Positions 161 to 10,187 of a stretch of 10,187 bases of DNA are shown here, one piece after another. Positions within the stretch are counted from its first letter, which is position 1. Each line of letters starts with the position of its first letter. The position numbers and the translations under genes are program-made. The notes beneath the pieces were generated by a model, which saw only the letters and a program-made list of their open reading frames with translations, did not search any database and had not been told where the DNA came from. This stretch comes from Candidatus Zixiibacteriota bacterium (lineage in GTDB: Bacteria; SM23-81), in assembly GCA_030628225.1 (NCBI GenBank), contig DAOVRJ010000074.1:1-10187 (forward strand), in the 5' to 3' direction.

Positions 161-583
161 TCAGGTCTCCTGGGCCTCCCCCATCCCTTCCCCGATGCTC
201 TGACGGATGAATTCCACGATCTCACTTGTAGCGGTCCCCGGCCCAAACATCCTGCTCACACCCATGGCCAACAGCTTTTCCCGATCCTCTTGGGGAATGA
301 TCCCACCACCACAGACCAGGATCTGCCCTTCAGCTCCCTGGTCCTTCAGCAAGCTCATCACCCTGGAAAAAATTGTGTTGTGGGCTCCGGACAGGATGCT
401 AATCCCGATGACGTCCACATCTTCCTGGATGGCCGACTCCACGATCATCTCCGGGGTCTGGCGCAGACCGACGTAGATCACCTCCATGCCGGCATCGCGC
501 AGGGCACCGGCCACGATCTTGGCTCCGCGATCGTGCCCATCCAATCCGGGTTTGGCGATGAGAACCCTGATCTTTCTCTCCAT
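161..583 (-). CDS. B12-binding small subunit of methylmalonyl-CoA mutase family acyl-CoA mutase
   Basis: This 140-residue protein is a stand-alone cobalamin-binding domain, the partner of the catalytic chain encoded just upstream. The B12 signature is complete: D15-G-H17-D-R-G20, where His17 is expected to be the lower axial ligand of cobalt; then S62-I-L64; then a glycine stretch G92-G-G94 that contacts the nucleotide tail. The fold expected is a Rossmann-like alpha/beta domain. The length matches small subunits of split mutases (isobutyryl-CoA mutase small subunits are about 136 residues). The ATG at 581-583 follows a strong GGGAGGGG site by a few bases and lies 14 bases after the large-subunit stop, so the two subunits are very likely cotranscribed. 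The stretch from the DxHxxG motif through [13 protein letters not shown] and SILSGAHNT is typical of both split methylmalonyl-CoA and isobutyryl-CoA mutases. This subunit alone does not decide the substrate. Confidence 0.93.
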
Positions 584-597
584 AGCCCCTCCCGTTA

Positions 598-2264
598 TCA
601 GAAAACAGGTGGTTCCCGATACTCTCCGTATATCTCCCTGAGAACATCGCAGATCTCTCCCAGGGTGGCATAAGCTCTGACGGCCTCAAGGATTGGAGGA
701 ATAAGATTTTTATCCTTTCCGGTCGCTTCCCGAAGAGCTTTACAGGCCTTACTGACAGCCCGGCTGTCTCGCCTGGCCCGCAAGCTGCGCACTTTTTTCT
801 TCTGATCCTCCTCCATCTGCTGGTCGATGCGCAGCAGCTCGATCTCCACCTCCTCATCCTCCCGTTCGTAGCGGTTGACCCCCACCACCACCCGTTTCTC
901 TTGCTCCACGGCCTTTTGATAGGCGCTGGCGGCAGCGGCGATCTCCCTCTGGAAGAAAGCCTTTTCGATCCCGGCAATCACTCCCCCCAGAGCCTCGATC
1001 TTCCGGAAATACTCCTCGGCCCCCGCTTCCATCTCATTGGTCAGGCTCTCCACGAAGTAAGATCCGCCCAGAGGATCTATGGCGTTGACCACCCCCGTCT
1101 CATGGGCGATGATCTGCTGAGTCCGCAGGGCAATCTGAACCGCCTTCTCGGAGGGCAGGGCCAGGCTCTCATCCATGGAATTTGTGTGCAGCGATTGGGT
1201 GCCGCCGAGAACGGCCGATAGGGCCTGAAAGGCCGTGCGCACGATGTTGTTCTCGGGCTGCTGGGCGGTGAGGCTACACCCGGCCGTCTGGGTGTGGAAA
1301 CGCATCAGCCAGGAGAGGGGGTTTTTGGCGCCATATTTCCCCCTCATGGTCCGGGCCCATATCCTTCTGGCCGCTCGATACTTGGCGATTTCCTCGAAGA
1401 AATCCATGTGGGCATTGAAGAAGAAGGAGAGCCGGGGAGCAAAGACGTCCACGTCCAAACCGGCATCGATACCGGCCTGGACATAGGCAAAACCATCGGC
1501 CAGGGTGAAGGCCAATTCCTGCACGGCTGTGGACCCGGCCTCACGAATGTGGTAACCGCTTATGGAAATGGTATTCCACTTGGGAACGTGCTGAGCGCAA
1601 AACCCCATGATATCGGTAATGAGTTTCATGTGCGGAGTGGGGGGGAAGATCCATTCCTTCTGAGCGATATATTCCTTGAGGATGTCGTTCTGCAGAGTAC
1701 CCCTGAGCTTCTCGGAGGGAACACCCTGTTTCTCCCCCACGGCGATGTAAAGAGCCAGCAGAATCGCCGCCGGCGCATTGATGGTCATGGAGGTGGAGAC
1801 CTTGTCCAGGGGGATGCCATCGAAGAGAATCTCCATGTCCTCCAGAGAGTCAATGGCCACGCCGCAGCGGCCCACTTCCCCTTGAGAAAAGACGTGATCG
1901 GAATCGTACCCCATCAGAGTGGGCATGTCAAAGGCGGTGGACAGACCGGTCTGACCCCGGTCCAAAAGATACTTGAACCGCCGGTTGGTATCAGCGGCGC
2001 TCCCAAAACCGGCGAACTGCCTCATGGTCCACAGCCGCCCCCGGTACATGTTATGCCTGATTCCCCGGGTGTAGGGAAACTCACCGGGAAAACCCAGATG
2101 TCGCTGGTAATCGAATCCCGGCAAACTGCCCGGAGTGTGAAGAATATCTACGGGAATGCCGGAGATGGTGACGAAAGAATCTTCATCTCCCGACGCTTTT
2201 GCCTGGGCCTTCTCTCGCCATTGCTGTTCACCGGCAATCTCTTTTTCAGCGGGTGAATCTGCCA

Positions 2265-2265
<1 letters not shown>
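598..2265 (-). CDS. Methylmalonyl-CoA mutase family large subunit; isobutyryl-CoA mutase-type active site
   Basis: This 555-residue chain is the catalytic TIM-barrel subunit of an adenosylcobalamin-dependent acyl-CoA mutase, which catalyses a radical carbon-skeleton rearrangement of a CoA thioester in the cytoplasm. Family landmarks include FPYTRGI near residue 63, [11 protein letters not shown] at 77-87, [10 protein letters not shown] at 190-199, [10 protein letters not shown] at 235-244 and [10 protein letters not shown] at 354-363. Tyr238-His239 align with catalytic Tyr243-His244 of the Propionibacterium methylmalonyl-CoA mutase. The two residues that separate substrates are Phe84 and Gln202. 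The spacing of 118 residues matches Tyr89/Arg207 of methylmalonyl-CoA mutase and Phe80/Gln198 of isobutyryl-CoA mutase, and the identities match the latter. There is no fused B12 domain; it is the next gene. The ATG overlaps the meaB-like stop as TGATG, with AGGAG 10 bases upstream. Family membership is near certain; the substrate is inferred. Confidence 0.95.
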
Positions 2266-3243
<978 letters not shown>

Positions 3244-3260
<17 letters not shown>

Positions 3261-3783
3261 CCCGTGATCCCCTCCCCTGCCGGAAGTAATGCTTAACCTC
3301 CCTCATCTCGGTGACCAAATCGGCTGCCTCGAGGATCTCCTGGGGAGCATAGCGGCCGGTGAGGACAAGCTCCGTCTCAGCGGGCCTGTTCTCTATAAGT
3401 GCCAGCACATCCTGCAGATCAATCAGTTTAAAATGCAGCGCCACATTGATCTCGTCCAAGATCACCATGTCGTATTCGCCGCCGGATAGGATCCGGCCAG
3501 CGTGAGCCAGTCCCTCTCGAGCCAGGCGGAGGTCAATTTCCGCGGGGTTCTTTCGATCCACGAAATCGGGGCGACCGAACTGGCGAACGACGAAATTGGG
3601 CAGGTTTTCGATGGCCTTCAGCTCACCATATCCGGGGTCACCCTTCATGAACTGGACCATGTAAATTTTAAACCCGTGGCCGATGGCCCGCAAGGCCAGG
3701 CCCAGAGCAGCGGTGGTCTTTCCCTTGCCATCGCCGGTGTATACCTGAACCATGCCGGAATTGACTTTCTCTGGAGACACCAT
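3244..3783 (-). CDS. cobO: Corrinoid adenosyltransferase (CobA/CobO/BtuR family)
   Basis: This 179-residue enzyme transfers the adenosyl group of ATP to cob(I)alamin or cob(I)yrinate a,c-diamide, making the adenosyl form of B12. The P-loop GDGKGKTT is at residues 17-24, directly after the first strand VQVYT, as is usual for the CobA/CobO fold. The central ILDEIN motif is present, and the chain ends with the family-like HYFRQGRGSRDGIEH. Full length is typical. The ATG at 3781-3783 has GAGG 5 bases upstream. It lies 51 bases after recJ and overlaps meaB by 17 bases. Here the product is most likely used at once by the mutase encoded two genes downstream, so this copy probably serves cofactor supply and salvage for the mutase rather than a full B12 synthesis pathway, of which no other gene is visible. 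Confidence 0.93.
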
Positions 3784-3834: not shown

Positions 3835-5577
3835 TCAAATGCGACGTGAGCTATACAGGGAAGAAGTTCCCACAGCATTCACCCGCAGGTCTTTGGCCCG
3901 CAACTGCAGGGAAGTTCTCCCCTGCCACCTGTTCTCCTCCAGGACAAAGGCCACGCTCAGGTTGGGCTTACCCATCTCCAAATCGCCGAGACGCTCGCCC
4001 ATGCCGAAGGCGATGACATCCAGAACCTTCCCGTTTTGACGAACCCTGAATTTGAGGTGATTCTTGCCCACTACGCGCGGATACCCCACCACCTCCAGGT
4101 TTGAGGCCATAATGACCGGCCGCATGTTTTGCGGTCCGAAGGGAGCCAGGGTGTTCAAGGAATCCAGCAGGTCTTCACCCACCTGATCCAGTGTTGTGGA
4201 CACGTCGATCTTCAGCGAGGGAACAAGCTGCTCGGGACTCAGCTTCTCGGCGGCCAGCCCTTTCAGTTTTTCCCGAAAAACCGCCACGTTCTTGGCCTCG
4301 ATGGTCAACCCCGCGGCATACTTGTGACCACCAAAACGGGTGAGATGCTCCTGACATGCCTCCAGGGCTTCGTAGAGATTAAACCCGGCAATGCTCCGCC
4401 CTGAACCTTTGCCCTGCTCGCCATCCAGGGCGATGAGCACGGCCGGTCGATAGCACTGCTCCACGACCCGGGAGGCCACGATGCCGATGACGCCGGGATG
4501 CCATTTTTCCGAGGCCAAGACAATGGCCCTGTCGGATTCCAGATCTACAGTCTTCTGGATGAGGTCCTTGGCTTCTTCTAACATGCTTCCGTCAATGTCC
4601 TTGCGGCGGCGGTTCTCGTCGTTCAAAAAACGGGCATTCTGACGAGCTTCTTCTGCCTGCGTGGTGGTCAGCAGGGAGATGGCCCGTTGGGCATTGCCCA
4701 GCCGGCCGACAGCGTTGATTCGGGGAGCCAGCATGAAAACCACGTGTCCTGTCTGAATCTCCTCGCCCAACAGGCCGATGGTCTCCACCAGACACCTCAG
4801 GCCGATCTTGCCTGTTTTGGCCACCTGTTCCAGCCCGAATTTTGTGAGAATTCTATTTTCACCCACCATAGGAACGATGTCCGCGGCCGTGCCCATGGCC
4901 ACCAAATCCAGGTGCTCCTCCAGCTCCGAATCGTCAAACCCAAGCTTGCTGTAAAGACCCTGAGCCAGCTTGAAGGCCACCCCTACACCGGCCAGATACT
5001 TGTCCGGGTATTGATCGTCCGGCCGTTTAGGGTTCAAGATGGCCTGGGCGGAGGGCAACCGGTCCTGAACCTCGTGGTGATCGGTGATGATCACATCAAT
5101 GCCCTGTGACCTGGCCAGGTTTACCTCATCGATAGCCGTGATGCCGCAATCCACGGAAATAATCAGGGTGACGCCTCGCTCCCTGGCCTCCTGGATACCG
5201 ACGGCAGAGAGGCCATATCCCTCGCTCATCCGATTGGGCACGTAGTACGAGACGTCCGCTCCCAGGCGAGCCAAGATGAGATAGAGCACAGATGTGGCCG
5301 TGATTCCATCCACGTCGTAGTCTCCGAAGATCATGATAGGTTCCTTGTTCCTCAGAGCCTTGATAATGCGGTCCACGGCCAGCCCCATATCCTTGAAGGC
5401 GAAGGGATCATGCAAATCCTCCAGTCGCGGATGGAGAAATTCGTGCCCCTGCTCCGCCGTCTCAATCCCACGATTGAGCAAAAGACCGGCGATGATCGGG
5501 GAGATGTTCAGTTCTTTGCAGAACATTCGGAGCCGCTGGGGATCGGGCTCATCAGCGAGCTGCCAGCGCATGTTCAT
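3835..5577 (-). CDS. recJ: Single-stranded-DNA-specific exonuclease RecJ
   Basis: This 580-residue cytoplasmic 5'-3' single-strand DNA exonuclease belongs to the DHH phosphoesterase superfamily and acts in recombination and mismatch or base-excision repair. Metal-binding motifs are visible: DYDVDG at residues 86-91, DCG at 143-145 and DHH at 166-168. GVGVAFKLAQGL follows near 197-208, and further on comes the DHHA1-type segment with GGHKYAAG. The C-terminal part has the look of the RecJ OB-fold (for example NHLKFRV). Length fits the family core of about 560-580 residues. The ATG at 5575-5577 follows AAGGGGG by 10 bases; a second ATG two codons later is possible. The gene lies 47 bases after the mature end of RNase P RNA, with no terminator seen between, and 51 bases before the adenosyltransferase gene. 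It may head the operon containing the B12 genes. Confidence 0.96.
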   Translation of the reverse strand: MNMRWQLADEPDPQRLRMFCKELNISPIIAGLLLNRGIETAEQGHEFLHPRLEDLHDPFAFKDMGLAVDRIIKALRNKEPIMIFGDYDVDGITATSVLYLILARLGADVSYYVPNRMSEGYGLSAVGIQEARERGVTLIISVDCGITAIDEVNLARSQGIDVIITDHHEVQDRLPSAQAILNPKRPDDQYPDKYLAGVGVAFKLAQGLYSKLGFDDSELEEHLDLVAMGTAADIVPMVGENRILTKFGLEQVAKTGKIGLRCLVETIGLLGEEIQTGHVVFMLAPRINAVGRLGNAQRAISLLTTTQAEEARQNARFLNDENRRRKDIDGSMLEEAKDLIQKTVDLESDRAIVLASEKWHPGVIGIVASRVVEQCYRPAVLIALDGEQGKGSGRSIAGFNLYEALEACQEHLTRFGGHKYAAGLTIEAKNVAVFREKLKGLAAEKLSPEQLVPSLKIDVSTTLDQVGEDLLDSLNTLAPFGPQNMRPVIMASNLEVVGYPRVVGKNHLKFRVRQNGKVLDVIAFGMGERLGDLEMGKPNLSVAFVLEENRWQGRTSLQLRAKDLRVNAVGTSSLYSSRRI

Positions 5578-6096: not shown

Positions 6097-7467
6097 TTAC
6101 ACCCCTCCACCTCCCCGGACTCTGATAAATTTCGCCCTCCGACGCAAATCCTCGACGCTCCTGGCCCCACAGCAGGACATGATCATGCGCAAATCATCCC
6201 CTAAATTATCCAGACCCTCCGCCAAAATCTGTGCCTGCCAAACTTTGCCGGCGGGCTGAAAAGAGACCATGGCAACATGAGCCCCGGCACCAATAGCCCT
6301 GGTGATCAGGCTGGAGGCCACCATTAGCTCCGCTGTGCCCACATCGGCCACCAGGGTGCCGCCGTGCTCCTCGACCAGGCGGGCGCAATTCCGGATGGCG
6401 GTGAACAGGGGCACTTTTAGCCCCAGGATAAAGGGCGCACCTATCTTGATCCCATCGGCCCCCGATTCCAGGATCTGTCGAGCTCCGCATGGATCGGTCA
6501 CATCTCCGGCTATTAACGATAAATCAGGGAATTTCCCCTTGACCTGAGCAATGCCCTTGATAAGCTCCGGACCGTGGCCCAAAGAGGCCTCCAGCACCAC
6601 CAGGTCAACTCCCGCCTCTACCAGGGCTGCGCATCGATCCAGAAGATCCTCGGCGGGATGAACCAAACCGCCAACCCGAAACTTCCCCTGCTCGTCCCGG
6701 CTGGAGAACATCGAGCCCGATTCGCCTTTATCAGGGCCAACTTCCTTCTTTTTCGCGGCCTTGACCTTTTTCACCGCCGCCACCTGGTCCCGGGGAAGCC
6801 TGCTGGGCCTCAGTATGGCCATACCACCCCTCAACGCCACCGCGGTGGCGAAAGATGCCGGCTCCGCGGAGGTAACGGGCGCGCTGAGCAGGGGAAATCC
6901 CAGTTGGATGCTCCCGGCTACCACGATTCCTGTTTTCACCTGCTCCGGCAGCACATCGGACCACTCCGGCAAGAGAGATACCTCATCGAGGGAAAAGGCA
7001 CCGCTCAGCAACTCGCCCGGCATCGCAGTTGAGGATTCCTCCTCTTGAGATAAGGATCTACGGAAAGCGGCCTGACGAGCCAACTGATCCGCCCGTTGAT
7101 TTTTCTCGCGGGGCACATGGCTAACCTCCAAAACCTCAAACTCTTGCTGGAGCTTCTTGGCCTTCTCAAAGTGAGGTTTCAGTCCGGCATTCTTCACTTT
7201 ATACTGGCCATTGAACTGTCTGACCAACAGCTCGCTGTCGGAGAAAATGGTCAGCCGACGCACACCGAGATCCCTGGCTTTCTCCAGAGCCAAGATCAGG
7301 GCCCGATACTCGGCCACATTGTTGGTCATCTCTCCCAGGTAGATGCTCAGGGTCTTCACCTCTCTTTGGGCAGAATCTAAAAAAACCACTCCGGCCCCGG
7401 CGTGGCCTGGATTCCCCAAGGAGGACCCATCGATGAAGGCGGTTAGCTCTCCAAATTCTCGTCCCAA
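6097..7467 (-). CDS. RNase HI fused to a degenerate IMP dehydrogenase-like domain
   Basis: This is a 456-residue two-domain protein. Residues 8-135 are RNase HI, which cuts the RNA strand of RNA-DNA hybrids. The DEDD residues are all present: Asp13 in FIDGSSLGNPG, Glu53 in NNVAEYRAL, Asp77 in FSDSELLV and Asp127 in RADQLA. The basic protrusion of E. coli RNase HI appears absent. After a polar linker (136-175), residues 180-451 track IMPDH/GMP reductase: FPLLSAPVTSAEPASFATAVALRGG, VEAGVDLVVLEASLGHG, GADGIKIG, VADVGTAE and a C-terminal CGARSVEDLRRRAKFIRV. The catalytic cysteine loop (normally GPGSICTTR) is replaced by GAPFILGLK at 343-351, and no CBS pair or recognisable active-site flap is seen. 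It is probably not an IMP dehydrogenase. The TTG start at 7467 is chosen because GGGAG lies 9 bases upstream; it overlaps the preceding gene by 25 bases. The fusion is seen in one uninterrupted frame. Confidence 0.85.
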   Translation of the reverse strand: MGREFGELTAFIDGSSLGNPGHAGAGVVFLDSAQREVKTLSIYLGEMTNNVAEYRALILALEKARDLGVRRLTIFSDSELLVRQFNGQYKVKNAGLKPHFEKAKKLQQEFEVLEVSHVPREKNQRADQLARQAAFRRSLSQEEESSTAMPGELLSGAFSLDEVSLLPEWSDVLPEQVKTGIVVAGSIQLGFPLLSAPVTSAEPASFATAVALRGGMAILRPSRLPRDQVAAVKKVKAAKKKEVGPDKGESGSMFSSRDEQGKFRVGGLVHPAEDLLDRCAALVEAGVDLVVLEASLGHGPELIKGIAQVKGKFPDLSLIAGDVTDPCGARQILESGADGIKIGAPFILGLKVPLFTAIRNCARLVEEHGGTLVADVGTAELMVASSLITRAIGAGAHVAMVSFQPAGKVWQAQILAEGLDNLGDDLRMIMSCCGARSVEDLRRRAKFIRVRGGGGV

Positions 7468-8159
7468 TACAGTATTCTCCCACAGTTCTCACAGGTCAAA
7501 ATGCTGTCGGTTCTGCGCACCTCCTGAATCTTTTGGGGTGGCAGGGTCTTGAAACAACCCCCGCAAGCCCTCTTGCGGATGGGCACGATGGCCAGGCCGT
7601 TCTTCCCCTTCCTGATGCGCTCATAGGCGGCCAGTAACCTCCCCTCCAGCCGCACCGTCACGTTCTTGCGATGATCTTGCTGTATGGCCAGCCTATCCTC
7701 GATGGAAGACAGATCAATCTCCAGCTGCTCCCATTTGGGGACGTTCTGCACCTTCAGCGTTTCCAACTCTTGGCGACGTTCCTCCAGCGTTTCAGTTAGC
7801 TCCTCCGAGGTGGTCATGATATTCAGGATACTTTCCTCGTACTCCGAAATGCTGGCTTTCTGAACATCGATCTCCGTCTGGATGGCATCATATTCGCGAT
7901 TAGTTTTAATTCTGTTCAGCTGCTGCTGGTATTTTTTCAACCGGTCCTGAGCCGTCTCCAATCCCAGCTCCTGCTCCCTTTTTTCCTTCTCCAGCTGGGC
8001 CAATTTGGCCTGGCCATCGGCGATGTTGTCATCCAGGTCCTGAACCTGTTTTTTCAATGTCTCAATTTCCGCTGGCAGGTCAATCTTGGAGTGGTTCAGC
8101 TGATCGACCTTCTGATCGATCTCCTGAATCTTTATTAGCATCTTCAGCGTCTCACGCAT
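7443..8159 (-). CDS. C4-type zinc-ribbon coiled-coil protein (DUF164/COG1579, CT398-like)
   Basis: This 238-residue protein consists of a long charged coiled coil (about residues 5-170, rich in Glu, Lys, Gln and Leu) followed by a zinc ribbon. The ribbon cysteines are CxxC at about 199/202 (CGGC) and CxxC at about 223/226 (CENC), spaced as in the COG1579 family. Its biochemical role is not established; nucleic-acid or protein binding is usually supposed. I chose the ATG at 8157-8159, which has GAGG 9 bases upstream, over an in-frame TTG two codons earlier that would sit too close to that site. The stop lies 25 bases inside the RNase H fusion gene, so the two are translationally coupled. Family members are also next to an RNase H gene in actinobacteria (Rv2229c beside Rv2228c of M. 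tuberculosis, from memory), which suggests a shared function. Confidence 0.88.
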   Translation of the reverse strand: MRETLKMLIKIQEIDQKVDQLNHSKIDLPAEIETLKKQVQDLDDNIADGQAKLAQLEKEKREQELGLETAQDRLKKYQQQLNRIKTNREYDAIQTEIDVQKASISEYEESILNIMTTSEELTETLEERRQELETLKVQNVPKWEQLEIDLSSIEDRLAIQQDHRKNVTVRLEGRLLAAYERIRKGKNGLAIVPIRKRACGGCFKTLPPQKIQEVRRTDSILTCENCGRILYWDENLES

Positions 8160-8250
8160 AGGCAATATCCTCAGATAAAAAGGGCCTCAACAAAACCTGC
8201 ATCGACCTTAACCTTTGAGCGCCCGGGTTAGAAAGGGCCTTAAAGCAAAA

Positions 8251-8500: not shown

Positions 8501-10187
8501 CTATTTGAGTAAAACCATTCTCTTGGTCTGGACAAACTCCCTTGCCTTTATCTGGTAGAAGAAAATTCCGCTAGCCACCTCTTCACCTCGATTATTCTCA
8601 CCGCCCCAAAAAACTTTGTAGTAACCGGCTTGCCGCTCTTCATCCACCAGATCTTTTACCAACTGCCCTTGGACATTATAAATTTTGAGAGTCACATAAC
8701 TATCCTCTGGCAAAGCGTACTCGATCTCCGTTTTTAAGTTAAAAGGATTTGGATAGTTTTGAGAAAGGGAGAAAGAAATGGGGATCTGATAGTCGCCAAT
8801 GACTTTAGGCACATTGGCATATGTTTTATCTGTGGTATAATATCCAGTCGATACCAAAATGAAGTCCCTCTCATAACCTTTGGGTGGTGGCTCCAAGGAA
8901 GAAAAGGCAAGATCAATTTGCTCATCAGGAAACAATTCTACATATTCTCTGTCGACAGACAGCAGATATTTTGCTGCCGGACCTATCTGGGAATGGACTG
9001 CCGACTTTAAAGGACATTCTTGTACCGTAAGATCAGACGGATAGGGCTGGGCCAGGCCAACATAATCCAATTTATGGTCTGCCTTCCAGTATAGCCTGAG
9101 CTTAAGTCCCTCGCTGACAGGCGCCATAGTGGAGGAAAGCTCTATCAGTTGCGTTGACCAATTTTCCCTGGGGTGGAGCAAAGCAATATCTTCCCACCCC
9201 TTTTTACTCTGAGCTTGTAAAACTATAGTGGTTATATTCTTGTCAGCTAACTCCAGTTCCAGATATGGGTCCGATTTTCCCATTTCCCCAAAGTCAACAA
9301 TCAGCCAGTCACCCTCGTGACCCTGGAAGTACTGGCCATCAACCCAATTTGTCAGCCCCTGGCAATCCCTGCCGCTGTTATCTACACAGGATATGGGAAG
9401 AGCCATCCTCGTGTAGGGAATTATCTCACCCTCAGAATTCACACCGATGAGCACATCCCCTGGATGATCTACTGCCAACAGTTTCACCTGATCCAAATAT
9501 GAGCACTCTTGCTCGAATTCCCTTATCTGAATTAGGTATTGCCCGTCCTTTTGAACCAGTGTTTGCTCAAGCTTATAATAGTCGGTCACGTCTGGCTCAG
9601 CACCCGCACACAACTCAGACTCACCTAAAATAGTATTATCCTCCACAAATTTCTCCCCATCCCAGATGTAAACATAAGGGCAACCACTGCTGGGACAACC
9701 ACCACAATCGCTATTAAGATCGTTGGAATAACCAGACTCACCATAGCTGTTATAAGCTTTGACCCTATAATGATAATAGCAGGGAGGATCACCCTGATCC
9801 TTGGATGAGTTGGGTTTACACCATTTGGTCTTGTTAGCTCCCACGGTGCCGACGATCTCCCAGTACTGATGACAATAAGAAGAATCAATGGCGGGGTCGC
9901 CCTCGTAGATGCGAAACCCTGACTCATTAAAAGAGTTGTCCGTCCAATGCATGTAGTTGTCGTCTTCACAATGAAGATTATTGGGTGCGGCCGGAATGGC
10001 CGGGACACCGAAAACGTTATAGGCAAAGGTGACCTGAGATGGCTGGCAGGGAACCCAACCTACAAATTGACCGCCGACGTTAATTTTCTTATAGACGTAT
10101 GAGACAAGCTGACAACCTGTAGTTGTAATAGATCCGGGCACCACACCTGTATATGTGTAGTCAAACTGTTCTGGACTGCCTGCCCAG
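8501..10187 (-). CDS. Exported multidomain protein with FN3-like and FlgD/T9SS-type C-terminal domains (5' end missing)
   Basis: The frame is open to the right edge, so the start and any signal peptide lie outside; the 561 visible residues are the C-terminal part. A GTG at 10144 is internal, because 14 more in-frame codons (reading WAGSPEQFDYTYTG) precede it. Visible parts, in order: a possible fibronectin type III-like domain (from PAAPNNLHCEDD to YRVKAYNSYGESGYSND); a cysteine-rich junction CGGCPSSGC; an uncharacterised domain opening PYVYIWDGEKFVEDN and containing DYYKLEQTLV and YLDQVKLLAVDH; then SFSLSQNYPNPFN leading into a FlgD-like Ig fold with IYNVQGQLVKDL and GIFFYQIKA, ending KRMVLLK. 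The C-terminal domain resembles type IX secretion sorting domains, so surface or secreted location is likely. It looks more A/T-rich than the neighbouring genes and has many cysteines. Function unknown. Confidence 0.85.
   Translation of the reverse strand, partial: WAGSPEQFDYTYTGVVPGSITTTGCQLVSYVYKKINVGGQFVGWVPCQPSQVTFAYNVFGVPAIPAAPNNLHCEDDNYMHWTDNSFNESGFRIYEGDPAIDSSYCHQYWEIVGTVGANKTKWCKPNSSKDQGDPPCYYHYRVKAYNSYGESGYSNDLNSDCGGCPSSGCPYVYIWDGEKFVEDNTILGESELCAGAEPDVTDYYKLEQTLVQKDGQYLIQIREFEQECSYLDQVKLLAVDHPGDVLIGVNSEGEIIPYTRMALPISCVDNSGRDCQGLTNWVDGQYFQGHEGDWLIVDFGEMGKSDPYLELELADKNITTIVLQAQSKKGWEDIALLHPRENWSTQLIELSSTMAPVSEGLKLRLYWKADHKLDYVGLAQPYPSDLTVQECPLKSAVHSQIGPAAKYLLSVDREYVELFPDEQIDLAFSSLEPPPKGYERDFILVSTGYYTTDKTYANVPKVIGDYQIPISFSLSQNYPNPFNLKTEIEYALPEDSYVTLKIYNVQGQLVKDLVDEERQAGYYKVFWGGENNRGEEVASGIFFYQIKAREFVQTKRMVLLK

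Follow-up and report, generated by a model that had tools for sequence, protein, structure and literature searches.

The window analysed here, a stretch of 10,187 nucleotides from a Candidatus Zixiibacteriota bacterium (GCA_030628225.1, contig DAOVRJ010000074.1), holds a gene in which an RNase HI is joined to a barrel resembling IMP dehydrogenase (IMPDH). The locus raises the question of how this combination arose, and of what a barrel stripped of IMPDH active-site elements could contribute to a ribonuclease.

Reading frame and RNase HI domain

The open reading frame at 6097–7467 (minus strand) encodes 456 amino acids, from a TTG at 7467, which overlaps the upstream gene by 25 nt, to a stop at 6097, and is open throughout. 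The initial annotation of a single frame combining a complete RNase HI with an IMPDH-like barrel is thereby confirmed, in agreement with the Pfam matches (RVT_3 and RNase_H, followed by PF00478). The RNase HI domain (residues 1–137; 7057–7467, minus strand) is recognised over residues 8–134 by RVT_3 (1.8e-24) and RNase_H (1.7e-13), both above cut-off, and has the PDB relatives 3u3g and 3hst, the latter being Rv2228c. D13, E53, D77 and D127, already named as the catalytic residues, align with those of other RNases HI (about 20 compared). RNase HI clears RNA from RNA–DNA hybrids. Judged by its domain match and DEDD carboxylates, the N-terminal part is an intact RNase HI, and cleavage of such hybrids is predicted. 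The subsequent linker (residues 138–153; 7009–7056, minus strand) is poorly conserved and modelled with low confidence: the region 136–157 is 45% identical to that of the homologue in the related genome SM23_81 (see below), and pLDDT falls below 50 at residues 141–154.

Fold of the barrel and loss of IMPDH elements

The C-terminal part (residues 154–452; 6112–7008, minus strand) is an IMPDH-derived (beta/alpha)8 barrel with eight strands and eight helices, an assignment based on PF00478, structure prediction, structure comparison and dN/dS. The PF00478 match (6.4e-45) covers residues 158–402 and lies above the gathering score, and the IMPDH-like C-terminus continues to about residue 452. Identity to ordinary bacterial IMPDHs is 28–33%. 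An AF2 model, built on an alignment of 29 sequences, shows a complete eight-stranded barrel with a mean pLDDT of 88.4; its pTM of 0.66 leaves the mutual placement of the RNase H and barrel domains unfixed. VIA structure comparison returned IMPDH structures as the best matches (Z about 36, 280–297 residues aligned). A different TIM-barrel family, which had been considered as a challenge to the assignment, was rejected: only IMPDH/GMP reductase scored above the Pfam cut-offs, and the best 50 VIA rows were all IMPDH or GMP reductase.

Relative to IMP dehydrogenase (GuaB, PF00478/TIGR01302), with which it shares fold and ancestry, the barrel lacks the CBS pair, the catalytic cysteine, the K+ loop, the flap and the Arg-Tyr dyad. 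The CBS/Bateman domain of IMPDHs sits between alpha2 and beta3 and binds ATP/GTP. It is usual in IMPDH, though not essential; in the barrel about 25 Lys/Arg-rich residues stand in its place, within a loop (residues 232–258; 6694–6774, minus strand) that is 41% identical between the two known members, basic in both and disordered in the model at 247–252. This loss went unmentioned in the initial annotation, as did that of the whole YRGMGS...DRY...PEG flap, which carries the Arg-Tyr dyad and the YRGMGS IMP site and is reduced to a short bridge (residues 402–412; 6232–6264, minus strand). The annotation was right that the catalytic-cysteine loop is absent; rather than being replaced, as it had proposed, the loop (GPGSICTT, including the K+ site) is removed by an eight-residue deletion at 6436–6441 (minus strand).

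Roles are assigned to residues from what is established about IMPDH structures, with human IMPDH2 numbering. Alignment upholds the two substitutions described at the outset. The NAD-site aspartate of the DSSHGHS motif corresponds to E293, at the end of beta4 in a LEASLGH segment (6574–6594, minus strand) identical in both members. The IMPDH motif DGGI has become DVGT (residues 375–378; 6334–6345, minus strand), with retention of the ribose aspartate and the second glycine, followed by a four-residue insertion. Among the residues that contact the IMP phosphate, S329, S388 and Y411 are lost or altered, and Ser or Asn stands in place of G387. What is kept comprises the ribose aspartate (D375), one phosphate-loop glycine (G377) and S295, and the position of IMPDH Asn303 is occupied by D322. 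Thus, on alignment, little is left of the canonical IMP phosphate site.

The barrel scores 112.4 bits against the IMPDH equivalog TIGR01302 (cut-off 481.5). It shares the superfamily of GMP reductase, GuaB1 and GuaB3 but falls far under their cut-offs (27.8 bits vs 397 and 66.4 vs 675 for the GMP reductase equivalogs), and GMP reductase likewise needs the Cys loop that is absent here. Because this loop, the flap and other active-site elements are missing, the barrel is predicted with high confidence to catalyse neither the IMPDH nor the GMP reductase reaction, in line with the earlier expectation that it does not oxidise IMP.

A second member and selection on the barrel

The same fusion occurs in SM23_81 (candidate division Zixibacteria, LJUY01000080.1; locus L035, G001:C45), 66% identical over 456 positions without a gap. 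The SM23_81 homologue shares the TTG start and the 25-nt overlap, and the Cys loop and flap are deleted identically in both proteins. In each of the two genomes the fused gene is the sole RVT_3-type RNase HI, with RNase HII encoded separately. Common neighbours are the zinc-ribbon gene, recJ, a cobO-like gene, meaB and methylmalonyl-CoA mutase. No further member of the degenerate form was detected in 386 genomes at E<=1e-38, nor in a GTDB 220 contig scan, which detects close relatives only.

Comparing the two members by NG86 yields a dN/dS of 0.178 over the whole barrel, or 0.153 counted from beta3, against 0.127 in the RNase H domain and 0.06–0.20 in neighbouring genes; these are estimates from a single pair whose dS, about 1.3, approaches saturation. 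Purifying selection acts on the barrel at nearly the strength seen for RNase H. In trees of the barrel the branch leading to the window/SM23_81 pair measures 6.8 substitutions per site, and in trees of RNase H 0.69. The barrel thus changed in a burst and was constrained afterwards, the pattern expected when a protein takes on a new role. Identity is 77% in the loops of its C-terminal face and 62.5% elsewhere, a modest signal (Fisher p=0.03); for the loops after beta3–beta7, a subset picked post hoc, the figures are 85% and 62%.

Gene neighbourhood and origin of the fusion

Directly upstream lies a gene for a CT398-like coiled coil with a C4 zinc ribbon (7443–8165, minus strand; PF24481, PF02591). 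It adjoins rnhA in most of the loci examined and consistently accompanies this type of RNase HI. A NIF3 (DUF34)–CT398 zinc ribbon–rnhA order, sometimes with recJ, is a widespread neighbourhood across many RNase H loci. Downstream lies recJ (3835–5577, minus strand; DHH, DHHA1, RecJ_OB), and SM23_81, G154 and G389 have it in the corresponding place.

A link between rnhA and guaB was found in all four genomes examined of this phylum. In one phylum-mate (G003) zinc ribbon, rnhA and guaB are separate, slightly overlapping genes, and in another (G002) an IMPDH starts just 3' of rnhA before the contig ends. An rnhA directly before an ordinary guaB is also seen in G006, G293, G392 and G396, of another bacterial group. 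Moreover, in G154, G386 and G389 (loci L044, L053 and L052) RNase HI and a complete IMPDH with every IMPDH motif present form one protein, the only full-length IMPDH of each genome. The RNase HI–IMPDH combination is therefore not unique to the protein of the window. These three proteins are apparently bifunctional, with an active IMPDH, as far as their motifs allow prediction. They resemble the window protein in domain order and in the upstream zinc-ribbon gene, and differ in that the CBS pair, the GPGSICTT loop and the YRGMGS/DRY flap are intact. Downstream, G154 further agrees with the window in having recJ–cobO, and G389 in having recJ. Still, as recJ also occurs near rnhA without IMPDH (G009, G028), a shared recJ is no proof of a shared fusion; the place of the barrel in the IMPDH tree is not fixed, and the trees set intact and degenerate fusions apart. 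Descent of the barrel from a zinc ribbon–rnhA–guaB operon is well supported by gene order.

A second IMPDH in the purine operon

A second, divergent IMPDH is encoded in both the window genome and SM23_81, beside purF-like, purL-like and IMP cyclohydrolase genes. It is PRK07107-like, although below the cut-off of that model, and has the Cys loop and the Arg-Tyr dyad. Its motifs and context suggest that it now supplies XMP. As a parent of the fused barrel the second IMPDH of the window genome is not supported, the two being 24% identical and in separate clades.

At loci L108 (10550–11998, minus strand) and L109 (6215–7669, plus strand) the divergent IMPDH lies between IMP cyclohydrolase-like and PurF-like genes; its YRGMGS motif is altered, while the cysteine, DGG and the Arg-Tyr dyad are kept.

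Possible function of the barrel

We put at about even the chance that the protein is the RNase HI of the cell carrying a captured, catalytically dead IMPDH barrel as a C-terminal accessory domain. Its origin is for the most part well supported: rnhA lies directly upstream of guaB in the zinc ribbon–rnhA–guaB unit of this phylum, and in the SM23-81-like family the two genes fused. The second, divergent IMPDH of the purine operon would then have taken over catalysis, and the fused barrel, thus relieved, shed the CBS pair, the Cys loop and the flap during the burst of change before coming under purifying selection. We infer this order of fusion, takeover and stripping, although the takeover possibly came first. 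The product would be a folded pseudoenzyme module serving the RNase H domain and making no XMP; service to RNase HI is its likeliest use because both genomes have only this RVT_3-type RNase HI. Its most likely task, held at somewhat less than even confidence, is to hold RNase H in an oligomer and/or to engage a ligand or nucleic acid, the latter contact being made via the conserved C-terminal face together with the basic loop found in place of the CBS pair. A more specific and tentative version, which we consider on balance doubtful, is that an IMPDH relieved by the second IMPDH was stripped and then taken on as a regulator dedicated to RNase HI, binding a ligand or nucleic acid. If so, hybrid removal would respond to a small molecule or a partner.

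Alternatively, a redundant guaB may have been frozen onto rnhA, leaving a functionless barrel that need only fold harmlessly for the sake of RNase H. The second IMPDH does make the fused barrel redundant, and drift has been favoured for the mycobacterial RNase HI–CobC fusion (PMC7466739), but purifying selection close to the RNase H level, together with the retention of all eight strands and helices and of conserved surface loops, makes this explanation rather unlikely. It is less probable still that C-face residues (e.g. H270, E293, H298, D322, D325, K341, D375 and E380) form a different active site in a bifunctional protein. Such a change of chemistry is frequent among TIM barrels and would fit the early burst and the later constraint, as well as the post hoc conservation of the loops after beta3–beta7; conversely, only the IMPDH/GMP reductase families scored above cut-off, and with two members catalytic and structural positions are indistinguishable.

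The initial annotation had seen in the dead barrel a functional module, namely a sensor that binds a purine nucleotide and couples purine or GTP/ppGpp levels to RNase H activity. Selection bears out the first part, a kept domain. The sensor role is quite improbable: IMPDH ancestry, the retained D375 and G377 and the conserved C-face loops are compatible with it, yet the CBS/Bateman domain is absent, the flap that covers the base is deleted and the phosphate contacts listed above are lost, so that neither IMPDH-like nucleotide binding nor GTP sensing is borne out. Finally, an artificial union of two genes by misassembly or frameshift, a concern given that the window genome is a fragmented MAG of 306 contigs, has a negligible probability and is ruled out by SM23_81, where an independent assembly has the same junction and internal deletions with neighbours conserved on both sides.

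Relation to known fusions

The Rv2228c type already provides an example of an RNase HI carrying a metabolic domain at its C-terminus. The mycobacterial RNase HI–CobC protein (Rv2228c/MSMEG_4305) shares the RNase HI type and a C-terminal metabolic-enzyme domain with the fused protein, and differs in that its second domain is an active phosphatase and in its restriction to Actinomycetales (PMC7466739). PRK07238 is the best NCBIfam match to the N-terminus, at 114.7 bits vs a cut-off of 326, and Pfam detects no C-terminal histidine-phosphatase domain, which places the fused protein outside the RNase HI–CobC family. In MSMEG_4305, the closest analogue to have been studied, loss of the CobC domain had hardly any effect in vivo, and the authors favour drift (PMC7466739). 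By analogy, RNase HI fusions may be nearly neutral, though the mycobacterial second domain stays an enzyme. A search of literature that takes in few subscription journals found no paper on an RNase HI–IMPDH fusion, intact or dead.

Living genomes show the intermediates: separate rnhA and guaB, a fusion with an intact and sole full-length IMPDH, and a stripped yet conserved fusion. The preserved barrel without its catalytic parts points to capture of a metabolic enzyme and its reuse as an accessory to a nuclease, and the series offers an unusually complete view of how such an enzyme can become a pseudoenzyme domain in a protein acting on nucleic acids. For the intact fusions, the question arises why GMP supply is tied to RNA–DNA hybrid removal in these lineages.

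Other genes of the window

Beyond recJ, positions 161–3783 (minus strand) hold a B12-dependent module of a CobO-like adenosyltransferase, a MeaB GTPase, the methylmalonyl-CoA mutase large subunit and a separate B12-binding subunit. At the other end, 8501–10186 (minus strand) encodes a large, probably secreted protein with a C-terminal FlgD-Ig-like domain, its frame open at the window edge.
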